Assembly (NCBI RefSeq): GCF_000382185.1
Contig: NZ_KB907784.1
Location: forward strand, 1,823,633 to 1,887,632
From: Bordetella sp. FB-8
GTDB taxonomy: Bacteria > Pseudomonadota > Gammaproteobacteria > Burkholderiales > Burkholderiaceae_B
DNA length: 64,000 nucleotides
Direction of reading: 5' to 3'
Shown here: positions 25,570-31,405 of the stretch, piece by piece
How positions within the stretch are numbered: the stretch's first letter is position 1
Layout of the letters: every line of letters starts with the position of its first letter
The notes under the pieces: generated by a model
The model's input: only the letters and a program-made list of their open reading frames with translations
What the model was told of the DNA's origin: nothing
Database searches by the model: none
Program-made: the position numbers and the translations under genes

Positions 25570-25623
25570 ATGCCGACAAGCTTGCGTGCAATCCGTTCGG
25601 ACATTACGAAGCTTCATGTGAAT
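25570..25623 (+). pseudogene. Truncated start of a macrodomain (ADP-ribose binding) gene
   Basis: An AAGGGG ribosome site and ATG open MPTSLRAIRSDITKLHV, which matches the first strand of bacterial macrodomains (normally continuing vDAIVNAAN). After about codon 18 the match is lost and the frame reads unrelated residues until a stop near 25806. This looks like a gene cut by insertion of the accessory segment. No matching 3' half was found within the window. Confidence 0.6.
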
Positions 25624-25802
25624 ACTATCGGAGAGCCGTCTCGCATGATCGGCCGATATCGACCCGTTACCGCCATTCACGTCTCGATGGTCAATGTCGG
25701 GTTTGCAGCGATCTCAGCCATTCGCCTTCCTGTATCGTGCGTGCGGTCATGTACACATTGCGGTCATCGACTAAGTTCGTGCGACACCTCACGTATGGTC
25801 TA

Positions 25803-25845
25803 TTGACATAGGACGCCCTATCCAGACGCGATATACTTTTCGGAC
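25803..25845 (+). promoter_or_regulatory. Possible promoter of the accessory operon, leaderless start
   Basis: TTGACA at 25803 and TATACT at 25832 are good hexamers but 23 bases apart, wider than usual. A transcript driven by TATACT would begin about at the ATG (25846), and no ribosome site is visible, suggesting a leaderless mRNA. ATAGG/CCTAT (25808-25821) forms a short inverted repeat between the hexamers that could bind a regulator. Confidence 0.35.
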
Positions 25846-27189
25846 ATGCAGTCAAAGAATAAGCCACCGCTTTTCTTCTACCAAGCGGCGTTGCATGAGA
25901 CTAGTAAGATGACAGCAGAAACAGGCTATGCCGGTCCCCACCTAACGAGATCGGGGCGCACATCAGATCCTTGGGGACGGTACTACACCTCCCCCGAGGT
26001 CAGCCGCTCCCTCATTGAGCGCATCAACGTCCCAAAGCCCAAGCTGGTCCTCGAACTGGGCTCGGGTTCAGGAGCCTTATGCGCCGCCGCAGCAAGCCGC
26101 TGGCAAGCCGCCCGACTCATCACCGTCGATACCGACAAGTACCCCTCTGAACGGGAGAGTGCGCACAGTCTTGGCCAGCCCACCCAGCACAGCCACTTTG
26201 TGCACGATGCGCTCGACGAAGACCTGCCGAACAAGATCGGATTGCGTCTGGGCACCGTTGATGTAGCAGTTTGCAATCCGCCCTACATCCGGCCACGTTG
26301 GCGCGCCGACTTTGGCAGCATCCTCGAAGACGCCGGTCTTTCAGGAACACTGGCCTCATTGCACGATGCTGGAGCGGATCTGCTGTTCCTCGCGCAGAAC
26401 CTTCGGCTCCTGCGCCGTAAGGGAAAGCTGGGTTTGATCCTACCTGACGGCCTAGTTACCGCCGAACGGTTCAGCGGCGTGCGGCGTGCGCTGTTGCGCC
26501 AACATCTGATTGAGCAGGTCGTACAGTTGCCGCGAGGAATCTTCAAAGGCACAGAAGCCCAAACCTATCTGGCCGTGCTGTCCAAGATGGCCGGCGAGAC
26601 TGACCAGCTGACGCTTCGCCAGATGGGCCCAGACGGCCAGCTAAGCCCCACAGTCGACGTTCCGCAGGAACTTGCCGCCAAACGGATGGACTATGCTTTC
26701 CATGCGCAAGCGATCTCTGCACATCACCTGCAAGACGGGTATCGGCGGATTCAAGTAGGCGACGCCCTGACCGATGTGGTTCGTGGATCAATTTGCTCTT
26801 CCGAGATTGGGGGGTTTCCTACCGCCGTTTTTCACCTTGGTGACTTTGCTAAGCCAGATGGCGAAAACACCATTCGCGTCGTGCCCAAGCGTTTTTCACT
26901 CAGCAACCGTGCGGCCAAGACGATTAGCCGTAACGCTTACTTGGCATGGCCTGGTGACATCCTCCTAGCGCGCGTAGGTCGCAATCTAGAGAATCGCCTT
27001 GCCCTGGTGGTCCACGGTCCATGCGTTATCAGCGACTGCATATTTGCACTGCGCACGACCGAGGAGCACCGCGAGCGGCTCTACAGGTTCCTCGAAAGTG
27101 AGGCAGGCCAGCGCGCACGGGCGACCTCGGCCCATGGTGTTGCGGCGCGCTTCTTGTCCAAGCAAAACCTGCTCGAGATTCAGTTTTGA
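25846..27189 (+). CDS. N6-adenine DNA methyltransferase with fused specificity-like domain
   Basis: 447 residues. SAM motif LVLELGSGSGAL (~residue 66) and catalytic CNPPYIRP (~143) identify an N6-adenine methylase of the HsdM/Eco57I/TaqI class. The C-terminal ~150 residues resemble a type I HsdS half: AWPGDILLARVGRNLENRLAL, then HGVAARFLSKQNLLEIQF. One chain may therefore both choose and methylate its site. First gene of a co-oriented trio with lower GC than the surroundings. No restriction nuclease domain is fused. Target site unknown. Confidence 0.82.
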   Translation: MQSKNKPPLFFYQAALHETSKMTAETGYAGPHLTRSGRTSDPWGRYYTSPEVSRSLIERINVPKPKLVLELGSGSGALCAAAASRWQAARLITVDTDKYPSERESAHSLGQPTQHSHFVHDALDEDLPNKIGLRLGTVDVAVCNPPYIRPRWRADFGSILEDAGLSGTLASLHDAGADLLFLAQNLRLLRRKGKLGLILPDGLVTAERFSGVRRALLRQHLIEQVVQLPRGIFKGTEAQTYLAVLSKMAGETDQLTLRQMGPDGQLSPTVDVPQELAAKRMDYAFHAQAISAHHLQDGYRRIQVGDALTDVVRGSICSSEIGGFPTAVFHLGDFAKPDGENTIRVVPKRFSLSNRAAKTISRNAYLAWPGDILLARVGRNLENRLALVVHGPCVISDCIFALRTTEEHRERLYRFLESEAGQRARATSAHGVAARFLSKQNLLEIQF

Positions 27190-27292
27190 AGACCGCTGTG
27201 CGTCATGGCTATTGTTAAAGCCTCGCTGTTCGCCCCTTTGCTGATTGAGCCTATCCCAGGCTCAGTCGGCTCACCCAACCTGTGACGCATAC

Positions 27293-29056
27293 ATGAGTAC
27301 TTCAGCCCTGGACAATGCACCCTCTCTGACACTAGACGAAGAGCGCGAAGTCGAGCAACAATATGAAGAGCGTGCAGACCATCTGGCGCTTGCTGCATTT
27401 CCCTCCAGTACGGCGGTGACAAACGACGCGGAAGAGTGGATCCATTCACTTACGGGGCCTGGCGCAAAGCTGCTGGTAGGCCCGCGCGGTTGCGGCAAGA
27501 CGCACTTGATGCGTTTTGCCTTTACGCAGTGCATCACCGATCCGGATCTGCCCTTGGCGGTCTACATCAACCTGAATCGATACTACACGCTGGAGCCCTT
27601 GCTGCGTCGTCGGCCAGAGGCCATGTCGACGTTCTACGTTTGGGTGCTCGCCAACGTCATGGTTGGCTGCCACGAGTCCATCGAGGCGTTCAGCGCACAA
27701 GGCCTCGTCCGATCTATCGACATCGACGCGCTTCTGGAGTTCAACGAGACAGAGCTTCGGGACCTCATCGGTGCCTACGAGAAGAACCAGCCTCTGAGCA
27801 CGGAACTCGACGAGGTCGCCAGCCGGCTGACGATCGACCGAGTCAAGCAATTGCTCCTCCGCAGCGCAGACACGCTCGGACGTCGGCGGATTGTGCTGCT
27901 GCTCGATGATGCAGCTCTCACTCTCACTCCCGAGTATTTGTCTCACTTTTTCGATATCTATAGGGCGCTGAAAGCTGCCCGAATCGCGCCGAAGGCGTCG
28001 GTCTACCCGGGCACGACGGAGTACGGCCCCAACTTCCACGCGGGGCACGAGGCTGACACAATCTTCGTCTGGAAGCGCGTCACCGACCAAGACTACCTGC
28101 CCTTCATGCTGGACATTGGCGCAAAGCGCTTTCCAGACATGTCCTTGGTTCCTAATGACATCCGAGAGCTACTCGCTTACTGCGCCTTCGGGGTCCCCCG
28201 CGCGTTCATGACGTTGGTCCGGAGCTACCTGAAGAATGTGAAGAGCCAAGGGACGGCTCAGAGCACTTTCAACGTCACCATCGACGAGTTTCTTGCTGAC
28301 CGCGTACGCGAGTACCTGACGCTAAAGGACAAGAAGCCCCAGTTCTCCAGCATCGTTGGCGTCGGCAAGCAGCTTCTAGACAAGATGGTTGAAAGCGTCT
28401 ATGACGCCAACCAGCTTCTACTCGAAGGCAAGACACGCCAGCTGTACATCGGGATCGATGCGTCGGGCGTCAATGACAAGCCGTATGTACAGCGCATGCT
28501 CCTGCTGCTTCAAGAGGCTGGCATGGTTTACGCAGTCTCAGGTGTCTCCCACGGCGATCGCGACTACGTGCGACTTGTACCCCACCTGGCAGCTGTGCAG
28601 GCACGTCGCACCTTCGCAAAGAAGGGCGGCTTCTCGCCGAGGTTTGCGGTCGACATGCTGTCCCGTCCTGACGAGAAACATCCCGTGCGTCGATCGATGT
28701 CCACTCTGCTGGATTCGACCACGCTTGAAGCACTGTGCCTGGACCTTCCGAACTGCCTTAACTGCCAGACCAAGCGCGTAGAGGGCGCTAAGTACTGCTT
28801 CAACTGTGGGGAGAAGCTCACTGATGAATCGACGTACGAAAGGCTCATGCTGGCGCGACTCGCCGATGTGCCGGGGCTAACGCCATGGCAACGAGAAAAA
28901 CTCAGCAGCTCAGACACGTTGCCGCGGACGGTTGGCGAGTTCATCGCTCTGCAGGACCCAGGAACTACGCTGCGCACGATTCATCGCGTTGGCCAAGTGC
29001 GCGCCAAGACCATCATTGATGCTGTTCAAGCTTTTCTTGACGAGTACCTGTCGTGA
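27293..29056 (+). CDS. ORC/CDC6-like AAA-type ATPase with zinc ribbon and C-terminal HhH-like domain
   Basis: 587 residues from ATG 27293; an in-frame TTG at 27245 could add 16. Walker A LLVGPRGCGKTHL is near residue 65 and Walker B IVLLLDDA near 205, with Asp in place of the common Glu. GVPRAFMTLVRSYL resembles a sensor-2/lid arginine. A CXXC-X10-CXXC zinc ribbon (CLNC...CFNC) lies at ~500, followed by RTIHRVGQVRAKTI, which resembles a helix-hairpin-helix. Probably a DNA-responsive ATPase. It lies 103 bases after the methylase and touches the next gene. Not matched by me to a named system. Confidence 0.7.
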   Translation: MSTSALDNAPSLTLDEEREVEQQYEERADHLALAAFPSSTAVTNDAEEWIHSLTGPGAKLLVGPRGCGKTHLMRFAFTQCITDPDLPLAVYINLNRYYTLEPLLRRRPEAMSTFYVWVLANVMVGCHESIEAFSAQGLVRSIDIDALLEFNETELRDLIGAYEKNQPLSTELDEVASRLTIDRVKQLLLRSADTLGRRRIVLLLDDAALTLTPEYLSHFFDIYRALKAARIAPKASVYPGTTEYGPNFHAGHEADTIFVWKRVTDQDYLPFMLDIGAKRFPDMSLVPNDIRELLAYCAFGVPRAFMTLVRSYLKNVKSQGTAQSTFNVTIDEFLADRVREYLTLKDKKPQFSSIVGVGKQLLDKMVESVYDANQLLLEGKTRQLYIGIDASGVNDKPYVQRMLLLLQEAGMVYAVSGVSHGDRDYVRLVPHLAAVQARRTFAKKGGFSPRFAVDMLSRPDEKHPVRRSMSTLLDSTTLEALCLDLPNCLNCQTKRVEGAKYCFNCGEKLTDESTYERLMLARLADVPGLTPWQREKLSSSDTLPRTVGEFIALQDPGTTLRTIHRVGQVRAKTIIDAVQAFLDEYLS

Positions 29057-29058
29057 CC

Positions 29059-29991
29059 ATGAGCAAGAACGCCACGAGTATGTTGGAAACGATCACACCC
29101 TTTCCAGCACCAACCGCAACGAAGCTAGACACGGCCAAGTGGTTCGATGCAGCGCACATACCAATGGTTGAGTCACCAATCGACGAGTTCCGCCGGAACC
29201 TTGCTGAGATCAATAAGCTGTACCTGCAGGCAGAACTGCGCAAGGAATACGTGCCGATGCTCGGGTCACTGGTGTACCTAGGCATGGTTTCAGCAGCAGA
29301 AGGCTATTTCCGTTCGCTACTGCGGCGCCTGATTCGTCAAGACACCGCGTGTGAGGCCAACGCCGCAACGCGAACAGTGACATATGGCGCCGCGATCCAT
29401 CATGAACCCGCGCTGCTTCCTGAGTCCCTACTCGAAGACGTCTCGCTCGCATCGGCCAAGAACGTCTTTAGCGAACTGCGCTCCCTGTGCGGAATTGAGG
29501 TTCCTGACTCGCTTCAGCAGTTGTTCCAGAACTTTGAGGCGATCAGCCAGGTGCGCCATTGCGGCATTCATCGGTTCGGCAAACTCGGCAGCCAGCAGGC
29601 CCTCCGACTCGGAATTGAACAGCACAAGCCACTGCTCGAGAAGCCGTTGGCCCTTCAAGTTGCACAACTACAAGAGATCGCCGACGCACTACAGGCGTTG
29701 ATTCATGCTGTCAACTCGCTGTGCTTCTCCGAGATACTGAAGAGGACACATACGGCTGGCCCGACCGGTCGAGGAAAGAAGAAGCTGTATCAGGAGATCT
29801 GGCAGCAGGACTGGGACGCGGACGAGACAAGGTTCACTGTGTATTACGACATCTTCGCGTCGACGAGCAAGCCTGATCCCTCTGCCCCCGCCAAGGACGT
29901 CTACGGCGCGTTCATGGCTTTCGTAAAGAACTACGACGCTGCGCAGAAGAAGTCCAAAGCAGCAGTTTCGACTGCGGCGCCGGTCAATTGA
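29059..29991 (+). CDS. Putative HEPN-like effector protein
   Basis: 310 residues, largely helical. The segment QVRHCGIHRFG contains R-H-X3-H, the RX4H motif with a polar residue after Arg that marks catalytic HEPN ribonucleases. It lies in a helical region (FEAISQ before, ALQVAQLQEIADALQALIHA after), as expected for HEPN. An upstream GTG (29053) overlaps the ATPase stop; the ATG at 29059 is equally likely. Coupling to the ATPase suggests the ATPase controls it. The HEPN assignment rests on one short motif and helicity, so it is tentative. Confidence 0.5.
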   Translation: MSKNATSMLETITPFPAPTATKLDTAKWFDAAHIPMVESPIDEFRRNLAEINKLYLQAELRKEYVPMLGSLVYLGMVSAAEGYFRSLLRRLIRQDTACEANAATRTVTYGAAIHHEPALLPESLLEDVSLASAKNVFSELRSLCGIEVPDSLQQLFQNFEAISQVRHCGIHRFGKLGSQQALRLGIEQHKPLLEKPLALQVAQLQEIADALQALIHAVNSLCFSEILKRTHTAGPTGRGKKKLYQEIWQQDWDADETRFTVYYDIFASTSKPDPSAPAKDVYGAFMAFVKNYDAAQKKSKAAVSTAAPVN

Positions 29992-30137
29992 TTACTTCTT
30001 CGCTGCGTGAGTTGCGTCGGTCGAGCGGCTATGACGATCAATGACCGGTTTGTGCTAACGCAGCCGTTCGTGGTGCGCAGGGCGAGTGACTCAGATCCAG
30101 CCTGAACCAGACATTTGCGAGTCACCGGCCAACGGCT

Positions 30138-30284: not shown

Positions 30285-31262
30285 TCAAGAGTCAGACTGT
30301 CGTGCGATAGCCTTGAGTACCAAATTGTCAAGTGCCTCAATTTCGACGACGTAACCTGATCGTTGATCACGCGCGTTAATTGTTCCCCAAAAATAGACTT
30401 TCAAATAATGCTTAGGGGCTTGGGCCTGTTCGATCTTTTTCATCAGCAAAGCACCTCCGCTATAAGCATGAATACGCGACAGAGGCAAATCAATCGTAAG
30501 CGAACGGCCGCCTTCGTTTTCATCGAAATTTTCGCACTCGCCCATGAAATTGATGTATAGCCGCTTCGGCGTGTCTTCAGGCCAAAGCTTGGCGCGTGCG
30601 CCACCGTACACGATCCGGCGACCATTCTCATCCGGCGTAATCCAATCCGGGCGTAAAACGGCTTGACGATAGCTGAGAGTTTTTCCCTCAATGACTACCT
30701 GACACTCCTTGAGCTCATCGCCTTCATACTGTGCCCAGCAATCGATGAAGCGTTCCAGACGCGACGTACTGGTGTAGCCATCGCGTGCACGGGCACCGCC
30801 GCCTGACGATGGATTCACATCCAGTGGTTCGCGATCTACTGGAGAATTAGTTACCTGTTTGCCGGATGGCGCATCAGCCGTCGAGTCAGAGGTTTTCGGT
30901 CGGAATACGTCGATCACGTTGGTCGACTTGGATCGCTCCACCCGAGGGTTCGGATCGCCGTCAGTGTCACCGCCGTTAGCTCGACGCTGCGCATGCCCCT
31001 GCACCCAGATGCACGTTTCAAGATGCGGATTTCCGGACGGCGCTCGAAAGTGAATCTGACGATATTTCTCGGTTTCCTCAATCAACTTGTCATAGTTGAC
31101 ACCTGACACGAGCGGATTTTTTTCTGCTCGACAAGCATCATCGGAGCATCGAAAGATGAATCGCTTTCGGCGATTTTCCGGCAAGGCAAAGTACGCTTTC
31201 TGTGCATCGTAGATATCAACGACTTTGCCAAGCTCCGCACAATATGCTTCCAGTATCTCCAT
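30285..31262 (-). CDS. Hypothetical protein with N-terminal zinc-finger-like motif
   Basis: 325 residues from an ATG behind a perfect AAGGAGG. Residues ~38-90 hold FRCSDDACR, then HFRAPSGNPHLETC: a C-X4-C...H...H-X3-C arrangement that could bind zinc and loosely recalls the finger of CoiA-like DNA-processing proteins. A low-complexity, Ser/Asp-rich linker (~100-160) leads to a beta-rich C-terminal domain (~165-325). No nuclease motif is certain. Oriented against the methylase-ATPase-HEPN operon, with direct repeats on both sides. It may be part of the same system or separate cargo. Confidence 0.55.
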   Translation of the reverse strand: MEILEAYCAELGKVVDIYDAQKAYFALPENRRKRFIFRCSDDACRAEKNPLVSGVNYDKLIEETEKYRQIHFRAPSGNPHLETCIWVQGHAQRRANGGDTDGDPNPRVERSKSTNVIDVFRPKTSDSTADAPSGKQVTNSPVDREPLDVNPSSGGGARARDGYTSTSRLERFIDCWAQYEGDELKECQVVIEGKTLSYRQAVLRPDWITPDENGRRIVYGGARAKLWPEDTPKRLYINFMGECENFDENEGGRSLTIDLPLSRIHAYSGGALLMKKIEQAQAPKHYLKVYFWGTINARDQRSGYVVEIEALDNLVLKAIARQSDS

Positions 31263-31405
31263 CAATCCTCCTTAGCACCCTAGCGGTTGACCACCCTAAC
31301 TGCCTCAACGGCATCCGCGCGCCAAACTTGAGAATGGGATGGATGGCCGCTTTGAAGTGTGCTGCCGAGACCTGAATGTCCGAGCGCTGTCTCTCGCGAC
31401 CGTCG

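Follow-up and report, generated by a model that had tools for sequence, protein, structure and literature searches.

How are DNA methylation systems wired to abortive effectors? The question is raised by three co-oriented genes of Bordetella sp. FB-8, called M, A and H here, for a DNA methylase, an ORC-type ATPase and a HEPN-like protein. They lie on contig 1 of a 4.08 Mb genome in 2 contigs, within the 64,000-nucleotide stretch analysed in this work (NZ_KB907784.1, positions 1,823,633–1,887,632; hereafter the window). A first-pass annotation had proposed that they form an undescribed defence system, in which the methylase marks self DNA and the ATPase senses unmarked or replicating foreign DNA and licenses an RNA-cleaving effector. 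We found that the trio is a real unit that has spread horizontally, and that it is very probably an anti-phage defence. If this is true, M-A-H represents a widespread and as yet unnamed immune system in which an ORC-type ATPase links a DNA methylase to an RNA-cutting effector, without the helicase or the DNA nuclease of restriction systems.

The three genes and their products

Three intact open reading frames (ORFs) occupy positions 25846–29991 of the window:

25846–27189, plus strand: M, a gamma-class N6-adenine DNA methyltransferase of 447 residues, with motif X (GRYYT), motif I (LELGSGSG), NPPY, and a C-terminal tail (about residues 300–447) resembling a target-recognition or specificity region
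27293–29056, plus strand: A, an ORC/STAND-clade AAA+ ATPase of 587 residues (TTG 27245 is a possible earlier start), with Walker A at 63–70, a Walker-B-type LLDDAA at 203–208 and FGxPR at 299–303, followed in its C-terminal half by a winged helix-turn-helix-like region (about 386–436), a zinc ribbon (C488–C505) and a helix-hairpin-helix (HhH) tail (about 522–587)
29053–29991, plus strand: H, a predicted HEPN ribonuclease of 312 residues starting at GTG 29053 or ATG 29059, with E83-x3-R87, R168-H169-x3-H173 (RX4H), N221 and W250

The start of A at ATG 27293 agrees better with the homologues than the first possible start, TTG 27245, and leaves 103 nt between M and A. H begins within the stop codon of A; the measured overlap is 4 nt, in line with the earlier description of these two genes as overlapping or abutting.

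M matches the Pfam family N6_Mtase (PF02384) at 2.5e-16, with 60.3 bits against a cut-off of 20.4, the PADLOC model MTase_II (PDLC03285) over nearly its full length at 3.4e-78, and, in a profile comparison, the EcoR124II M protein at 4.1e-19. Together with this above-threshold N6_Mtase match, the motifs X-I-IV and NPP[YF] identify M as an HsdM-like, gamma-class N6-adenine methyltransferase. NPP is invariant across 25 aligned M proteins; the alignment excludes the loci with a broken M (L012, L049) or a weak one (L029, L067). In the tail, residues 301–369 have a mean pairwise identity of 0.25 versus 0.40 in the catalytic core; the linker before it (251–300) is equally variable, at 0.23. The tail of the E. 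coli homologue (256–400) matches the MAD5 S-subunit model at 6.4e-5, far below the cut-off of that model.

A contains an AAA+ core with Walker A and B motifs, followed by a lid and an ORC/STAND-type winged-helix region, as expected of the ORC/Cdc6-STAND group. Its GPRGxGK Walker A, its Walker-B-type DDA and the four cysteines C488, C491, C502 and C505 (CXXC-X10-CXXC) are invariant in 44 aligned proteins, and the Pfam matches to DZR and HHH_5 are weak. Against the Pfam family ORC-CDC6-like (PF24389) the window protein scores 26.4 bits, where the curated cut-off is 27, and the E. coli homologue scores 37.7 bits, above the cut-off and spanning 83 residues only. In its overall likeness A recalls replication initiators and DNA-binding AAA+ rings. 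Two distant relatives of A (L015, 7896–9530; L005, 1393–3051) lack the CXXC pairs. The former, on a Planktothrix plasmid, has a PAPS-reductase gene, DUF4007 and a PbeA-like helicase as neighbours, which probably makes this a defence context of the phosphorothioate type.

Its motifs and the structural comparison make it very probable that H is a HEPN RNase. The definition of HEPN ribonucleases names an Rx4-6H with a polar residue after the arginine and a second acidic residue in Ex3[KR] (PMC3710099). H has both: E83-x3-R87 and R168-H169-x3-H173 are invariant in all 42 aligned proteins (L039, with a split H, and L041, with a broken H, were omitted). The family HEPN_RiboL-PSP is matched by 6 of these 42 proteins, at best with 1.2e-3. 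When H was compared structurally, solved HEPN structures ranked at the top and the helical fold of HEPN proteins was recovered; the leading neighbours include HEPN proteins of two-gene toxin–antitoxin pairs, in which one partner controls the other. Foldseek returned no significant match for H, and its profile matched no PDB sequence at E<=1. In a search for the cognate DNA endonuclease of a type I or II restriction-modification system, neither A nor H matched a nuclease family of Pfam, PADLOC or NCBIfam, and the fold that H resembles, HEPN, is that of an RNase. The domain calls of the first-pass annotation for all three proteins, including the HEPN-like nature of H, are thus borne out by the Pfam and PADLOC matches, the invariant motifs and the structural ranking.

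Recurrence and acquisition of the unit

We assembled at least 44 non-redundant full-length A loci, the window included, from genomes, plasmids and viral contigs. Thirteen rows at least 95% identical to a retained row were dropped, together with L001 and L002, which are the window itself; loci in which no A segment reached 400 bits were excluded (L005–L010 and L015, distant; L043, broken; L045, cut). The loci listed belong to Pseudomonadota, Bacteroidota, Myxococcota, Actinomycetota, Bacillota and Verrucomicrobiota, in addition to plasmid and viral records, and include one from Mesorhizobium (L024). In every one of the 44, A is followed by a co-oriented H, for which reason a chance neighbourhood was dropped as an explanation. 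The match to H starts no more than 150 nt past the end of A in all but two: in L046 the distance is 178 nt, and in L039 H is split by an inserted ORF. L041 has a broken H. The gene order is repeated across phyla.

An M-family methylase is present at 29 of the 44 loci listed (27 strong, 2 weak), upstream of A-H in 24, downstream in 3 and divergent in 2 (L029 was scored with a later model), and hence the partnership with M outlives rearrangement. The remaining 15 have A-H without it. The tree of A has a deep split (100/100) between a clade of 30, containing all 29 loci with M, and a clade of 14 without M, to which 14 of the 15 belong. Hence A-H can probably act without M, which is a clade-specific partner, and the existence of this clade suggests that sensing is possible without this methylase. 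Evolutionary distances of A and H correlate at 0.84 over 42 rows and at 0.56 over the 25 rows with M; the correlation is 0.44 for M with H and 0.25 for M with A (Mantel p 0.006), and by these weaker values M is the looser partner.

Individual methylases next to A-H were as follows. In L031 (280–1485, minus strand) and L067 (5038–6157, minus strand) an M-like methylase is divergent from A-H, the L067 match being split over two frames and broken. In a Puniceicoccaceae bin (L038, 16–3039), A-H is preceded by a fragment of a type-II-like N6 methylase (PADLOC, 1.8e-156), and by eye a frame at 1305–2453 of the same locus resembles a C5-cytosine methylase, possibly another methylase swap.

The occurrence of the unit is sporadic. 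Searching 399 genomes of the order with A gave nine matches, three of which are M-A-H (the own genome, G189 and G209) and six distant ATPases without H. At the level of the phylum, searching 398 genomes with H gave three matches (the own genome, one M-A-H in G502, and one 27-bit stray without A), and at the level of the class 369 genomes gave two (the own genome and a fragment of A-H cut off by the end of its contig). Among 101 relatives, including 14 other genomes of the genus, A is present in the window's own genome only. A tblastn search of phage records with A found none.

The nearest relative, and the sole close one among the matches listed, is the same trio in a Gammaproteobacteria metagenome bin (L016), which is 90.4% identical to the window at the DNA level. 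The similarity is confined to the unit, with none elsewhere in the 17.8 kb compared. Relative to this homologue, dN/dS is 0.17 for M (432 of 447 codons), 0.15 for A and 0.16 for H; all three genes are under purifying selection. The unit and the gene remnant at its left were placed as follows:

25704–30108, plus strand: the unit, its extent taken from blastn against L016, GC and junction sequences
25570–25630, plus strand: start of a truncated gene on the left flank of the acquired stretch, longer in the congener

The congener (L091, genome G411) matches the window only up to 25630, beyond which its own frame continues; by eye, the remnant resembles the start of a gene for a macro-domain protein. 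The G+C fraction is 0.578 in the unit and 0.650 in the rest of the window, and low G+C extends beyond the unit, from about 25.0 kb to about 31.5 kb. Because of this, and because congeners match the right flank only weakly, the acquired region may be larger than the trio. A repeat search for element ends around the unit gave nothing convincing. Adjoining the unit, a 326-residue ORF on the minus strand (30285–31265) matches nothing in Pfam, PADLOC or NCBIfam at E<=1.

Defence neighbourhoods and a second ORC-type ATPase

Copies of the unit are found on plasmids and viral contigs; judged by eye, some A-H copies without M on viral contigs sit among tail- or lysis-like genes. In a Lachnospiraceae BREX locus (L039), A-H has pglX on one side and pglZ on the other, with brxC upstream. 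Among 71 neighbour proteins from 26 loci, scanned without a control set, PADLOC matches include RhuM-type, SoFic, CARF6-like, Avs2 and BREX proteins, along with many ordinary genes. The scan comprised 68 of 126 script-listed neighbours, those from viral contigs and a further 20, mostly spurious-looking, being omitted. Three proteins picked by hand were added: the RhuM-type protein and one other from L016, and one from L038. The BREX embedding, the neighbours matching defence models and the vicinity of a BREX cluster in E. coli HS (described below) give the proposed defence role its genomic context. The BREX-embedded H of L039 (10153–11385) is split by an ORF that by eye resembles an IS110-type transposase, and in L044, which has an identical A, H is intact.

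With the E. coli trio as query, at least 80% was covered in 145 of 5,426 complete E. coli genomes, at no less than 99% identity. One listed copy (EC7) is interrupted by IS3. The A-H DNA of viral contig L049 matched 145 of the 5,426 over 6% of the query length, and another viral-contig A-H, used as a DNA query in E. coli, matched none. The E. coli genes are annotated as 'HsdM family methyltransferase', as 'ORC-CDC6 family AAA ATPase' or 'zinc ribbon domain-containing protein', and as 'hypothetical protein'. Strain DA33133 has proA, tRNA-Thr, an integrase and then the trio. In E. coli HS the trio (ECHS_RS01665–01675; NC_009800.1, 335287–339242) follows the same integrase protein and is succeeded by IS1, a broken gene and brxA-brxB-brxC, with brxA about 1.7 kb from H. 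Several studies of BREX have used this downstream cluster, and the function of the trio is testable at once in laboratory strains. In the accessible parts of the published work, the E. coli HS BREX clones begin downstream of the trio, and the residual phage resistance of E. coli HS without BREX is left unexplained. Other causes of that resistance, e.g. surface structures, are just as possible as the trio.

The methylase family of M is shared with a second ORC-type ATPase. At E<=1e-40 it was found in 5 of the 399 genomes of the order, in three of them within M-A-H and in two beside an ATPase of the PF24389 family. We surveyed the gene rows with local models, denoting the PF24389 ORC ATPase O, a CARF6-like protein C and PRTase-CE (Pfam PF24390) P. 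Six-gene rows read M-A-H-P-O-C in L017 (6724–14725) and P-O-C-A-H-M in L025 (4008–11754) and L029 (4122–11593). PF24389 was found in 8 of 300 genomes searched; two of these rows, O-C-M in L119 and O-M in L123 (M broken), are without A-H in the stretch examined. The remaining six read P-O-C in L118 (P weak), O-C in L117 and L122, and O alone in L116 and L120, and the local models found nothing in L121. A single methylase family thus serves both pairs of ORC ATPase and effector, and the pairs can be combined in one row. The ORC ORF of L119 also bears an N-terminal ParA/AAA_31-like domain.

The rows bring to mind a broader reading, to which we give somewhat less than an even chance: M-A-H could belong to a larger, undescribed immune platform of modular build, with a single family of site-specific adenine methylases common to interchangeable cassettes of ORC-type ATPase and effector. 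The effectors would conceivably be the HEPN RNase with A, and PRTase-CE and the CARF6-like protein with the second ORC ATPase. Such cassettes might be stacked, swapped, carried without a methylase on viral elements, or inserted in BREX between pglX and pglZ. In this reading, RNA cleavage or nucleotide-based toxicity would be the output, and the input would be how the DNA is methylated or what state the methylase itself is in.

Proposed function, alternatives and known systems

We give about an even chance to the reading that M-A-H is a mobile anti-phage system with the logic of restriction-modification (R-M), in which an RNA-cleaving effector takes the place of a DNA-cleaving one. From the motifs, we infer that M would methylate adenine at a specific DNA site. 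A would assemble on DNA, or on a structure made during infection, that lacks the mark or an active bound M. Once active and driven by ATP, A would release or activate H, a step suggested by the anatomy of the proteins, their neighbourhood and the overlapping genes. H, by analogy with the HEPN superfamily, would cut RNA, probably tRNA or mRNA, and phage production would stop at a cost to the cell or to its growth. The earlier interpretation is partly supported: the domains, the HEPN assignment, the recurrent unit, the defence context and the lack of a name all stood, and none of the three findings named beforehand as refuting it was made; the A-H pairs without M qualify it.

The recognition of a missing mark is not the only way in which these genes could be connected. 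A-H could instead watch the methylase, or a neighbouring R-M or BREX complex, whose inhibition or removal by a phage would set off the HEPN RNase, in the manner of PrrC or PARIS, with M as the guarded protein or a bait. This fits nearly as well as sensing of the mark, and we consider it rather unlikely. A-H fills the pglX-pglZ gap of the BREX locus L039, and the same gap in the BREX locus of Salmonella LT2 holds a pair of an ATPase and a DUF4435 protein (PMC9009780). In PARIS, as described, the ATPase switches on a tRNA-cutting nuclease upon detecting Ocr (PMC12839542), and PrrC is described as a HEPN RNase kept inactive by its R-M complex EcoprrI (PMC3710099). A-H without M would also suit a sensor that has its own trigger. 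The LT2 pair is presumably a PARIS pair. Against this proposal, the partner in the 29 loci is one specific methylase family and not a variety of R-M systems. An addiction module, with M as the antidote (through its mark or as a direct inhibitor) and A-H as the toxin, would retain a plasmid, island or prophage, and any anti-phage effect would be secondary. Classic R-M systems can act as addiction modules, and the plasmid copies, the viral contigs and the integrase and tRNA neighbours in E. coli would agree with such a role. However, A-H in the 15 loci without M would have no antidote, and both the BREX-embedded A-H and the combination with P-O-C point to conflict with invaders; we regard addiction as improbable.

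Least probable of all, in our view decidedly so, is a system that targets DNA replication rather than RNA, in which A would be the component that does harm or acts on DNA and H a HEPN protein without catalysis or of an antitoxin-like kind. The resemblance of A to replication initiators and DNA-binding AAA+ rings, and the toxin–antitoxin HEPN proteins among the top structural neighbours of H, lend themselves to this idea, but all 42 aligned proteins retain RX4H, the residue pair that HEPN RNases are described as requiring, which would be unexpected in a non-catalytic subunit.

Returning to the reading as an R-M-like system with an RNA-cleaving effector, we compared M-A-H with described systems. 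The nearest described arrangement is DUF499/BR (type 1, or Hma), which has a methylase, an ORC-type ATPase often with a fused HEPN, and a helicase (PMC12839542). BR carries that helicase and a BrxC-like DUF499 ATPase, whereas here a 587-residue A with zinc ribbon and HhH stands beside a separate H gene. This name was rejected on a search of the unit (25704–30108), which has M, A and H only, without a helicase, and whose A has no DUF499 or BREX_BrxC Pfam match at E<=1. The name BREX was likewise set aside, PglZ and BrxC not being found in the unit; BREX is the embedding elsewhere, as in L039. PrrC/EcoprrI and RloC share with M-A-H an ATPase-controlled HEPN effector, in the case of PrrC within a methylase-bearing locus. 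Their ATPase is of the ABC type and fused to HEPN, in contrast to the separate ORC/STAND-clade AAA+ ATPase here, and EcoprrI has a full hsdMSR, absent from the M-A-H unit. With a different ATPase class and separate, unfused genes, neither name applies. PARIS (AriA-AriB) is alike in being a pair of an ATPase and an RNA-cutting nuclease able to sit within BREX. It consists of an OLD-type ABC ATPase and a TOPRIM nuclease and is not known to have a dedicated methylase, whereas M-A-H has AAA+ and HEPN. MADS is approached by M, which matches mad2 of PADLOC at 2.4e-19 (the E. coli M matches the NCBIfam MAD2 at 3.5e-16), and by some relatives of A, which match mad8 weakly. MADS has eight genes. It was rejected as a name, the MAD2 scores being 30.8 bits for the window and 58.6 bits for E. 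coli against a cut-off of 720, and the unit having three genes only.

No name for or description of the trio was found in the libraries searched or in the open-licence literature, with most subscription journals outside this scope, and an accession and locus-tag search of open-licence papers found none. The NCBIfam model of the DefensePredictor system DS-41 scores weakly against the E. coli A (15.1 bits; cut-off 370), and M-A-H is unlikely to be identical to DS-41. It may be among the other validated DefensePredictor systems, those with HEPN or methylase being presented mostly in figures and tables (PMC13092281). The trio has no close match to the named systems tested, in keeping with the earlier statement that it was not recognised as one. 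M-A-H would work like a methylase-linked, ATPase-gated HEPN system, but it falls outside these named systems: the unit has no helicase, its ATPase is a different one that bears a zinc ribbon and HhH, and HEPN is encoded by a gene of its own. The rows of PF24389 and PF24390 genes are similar in having an ORC-type ATPase beside small effector-like genes and can share the methylase family, and even the gene row, with A-H-M, but they differ in their partners, PRTase-CE and the CARF6-like protein, and probably in their ATPase family.

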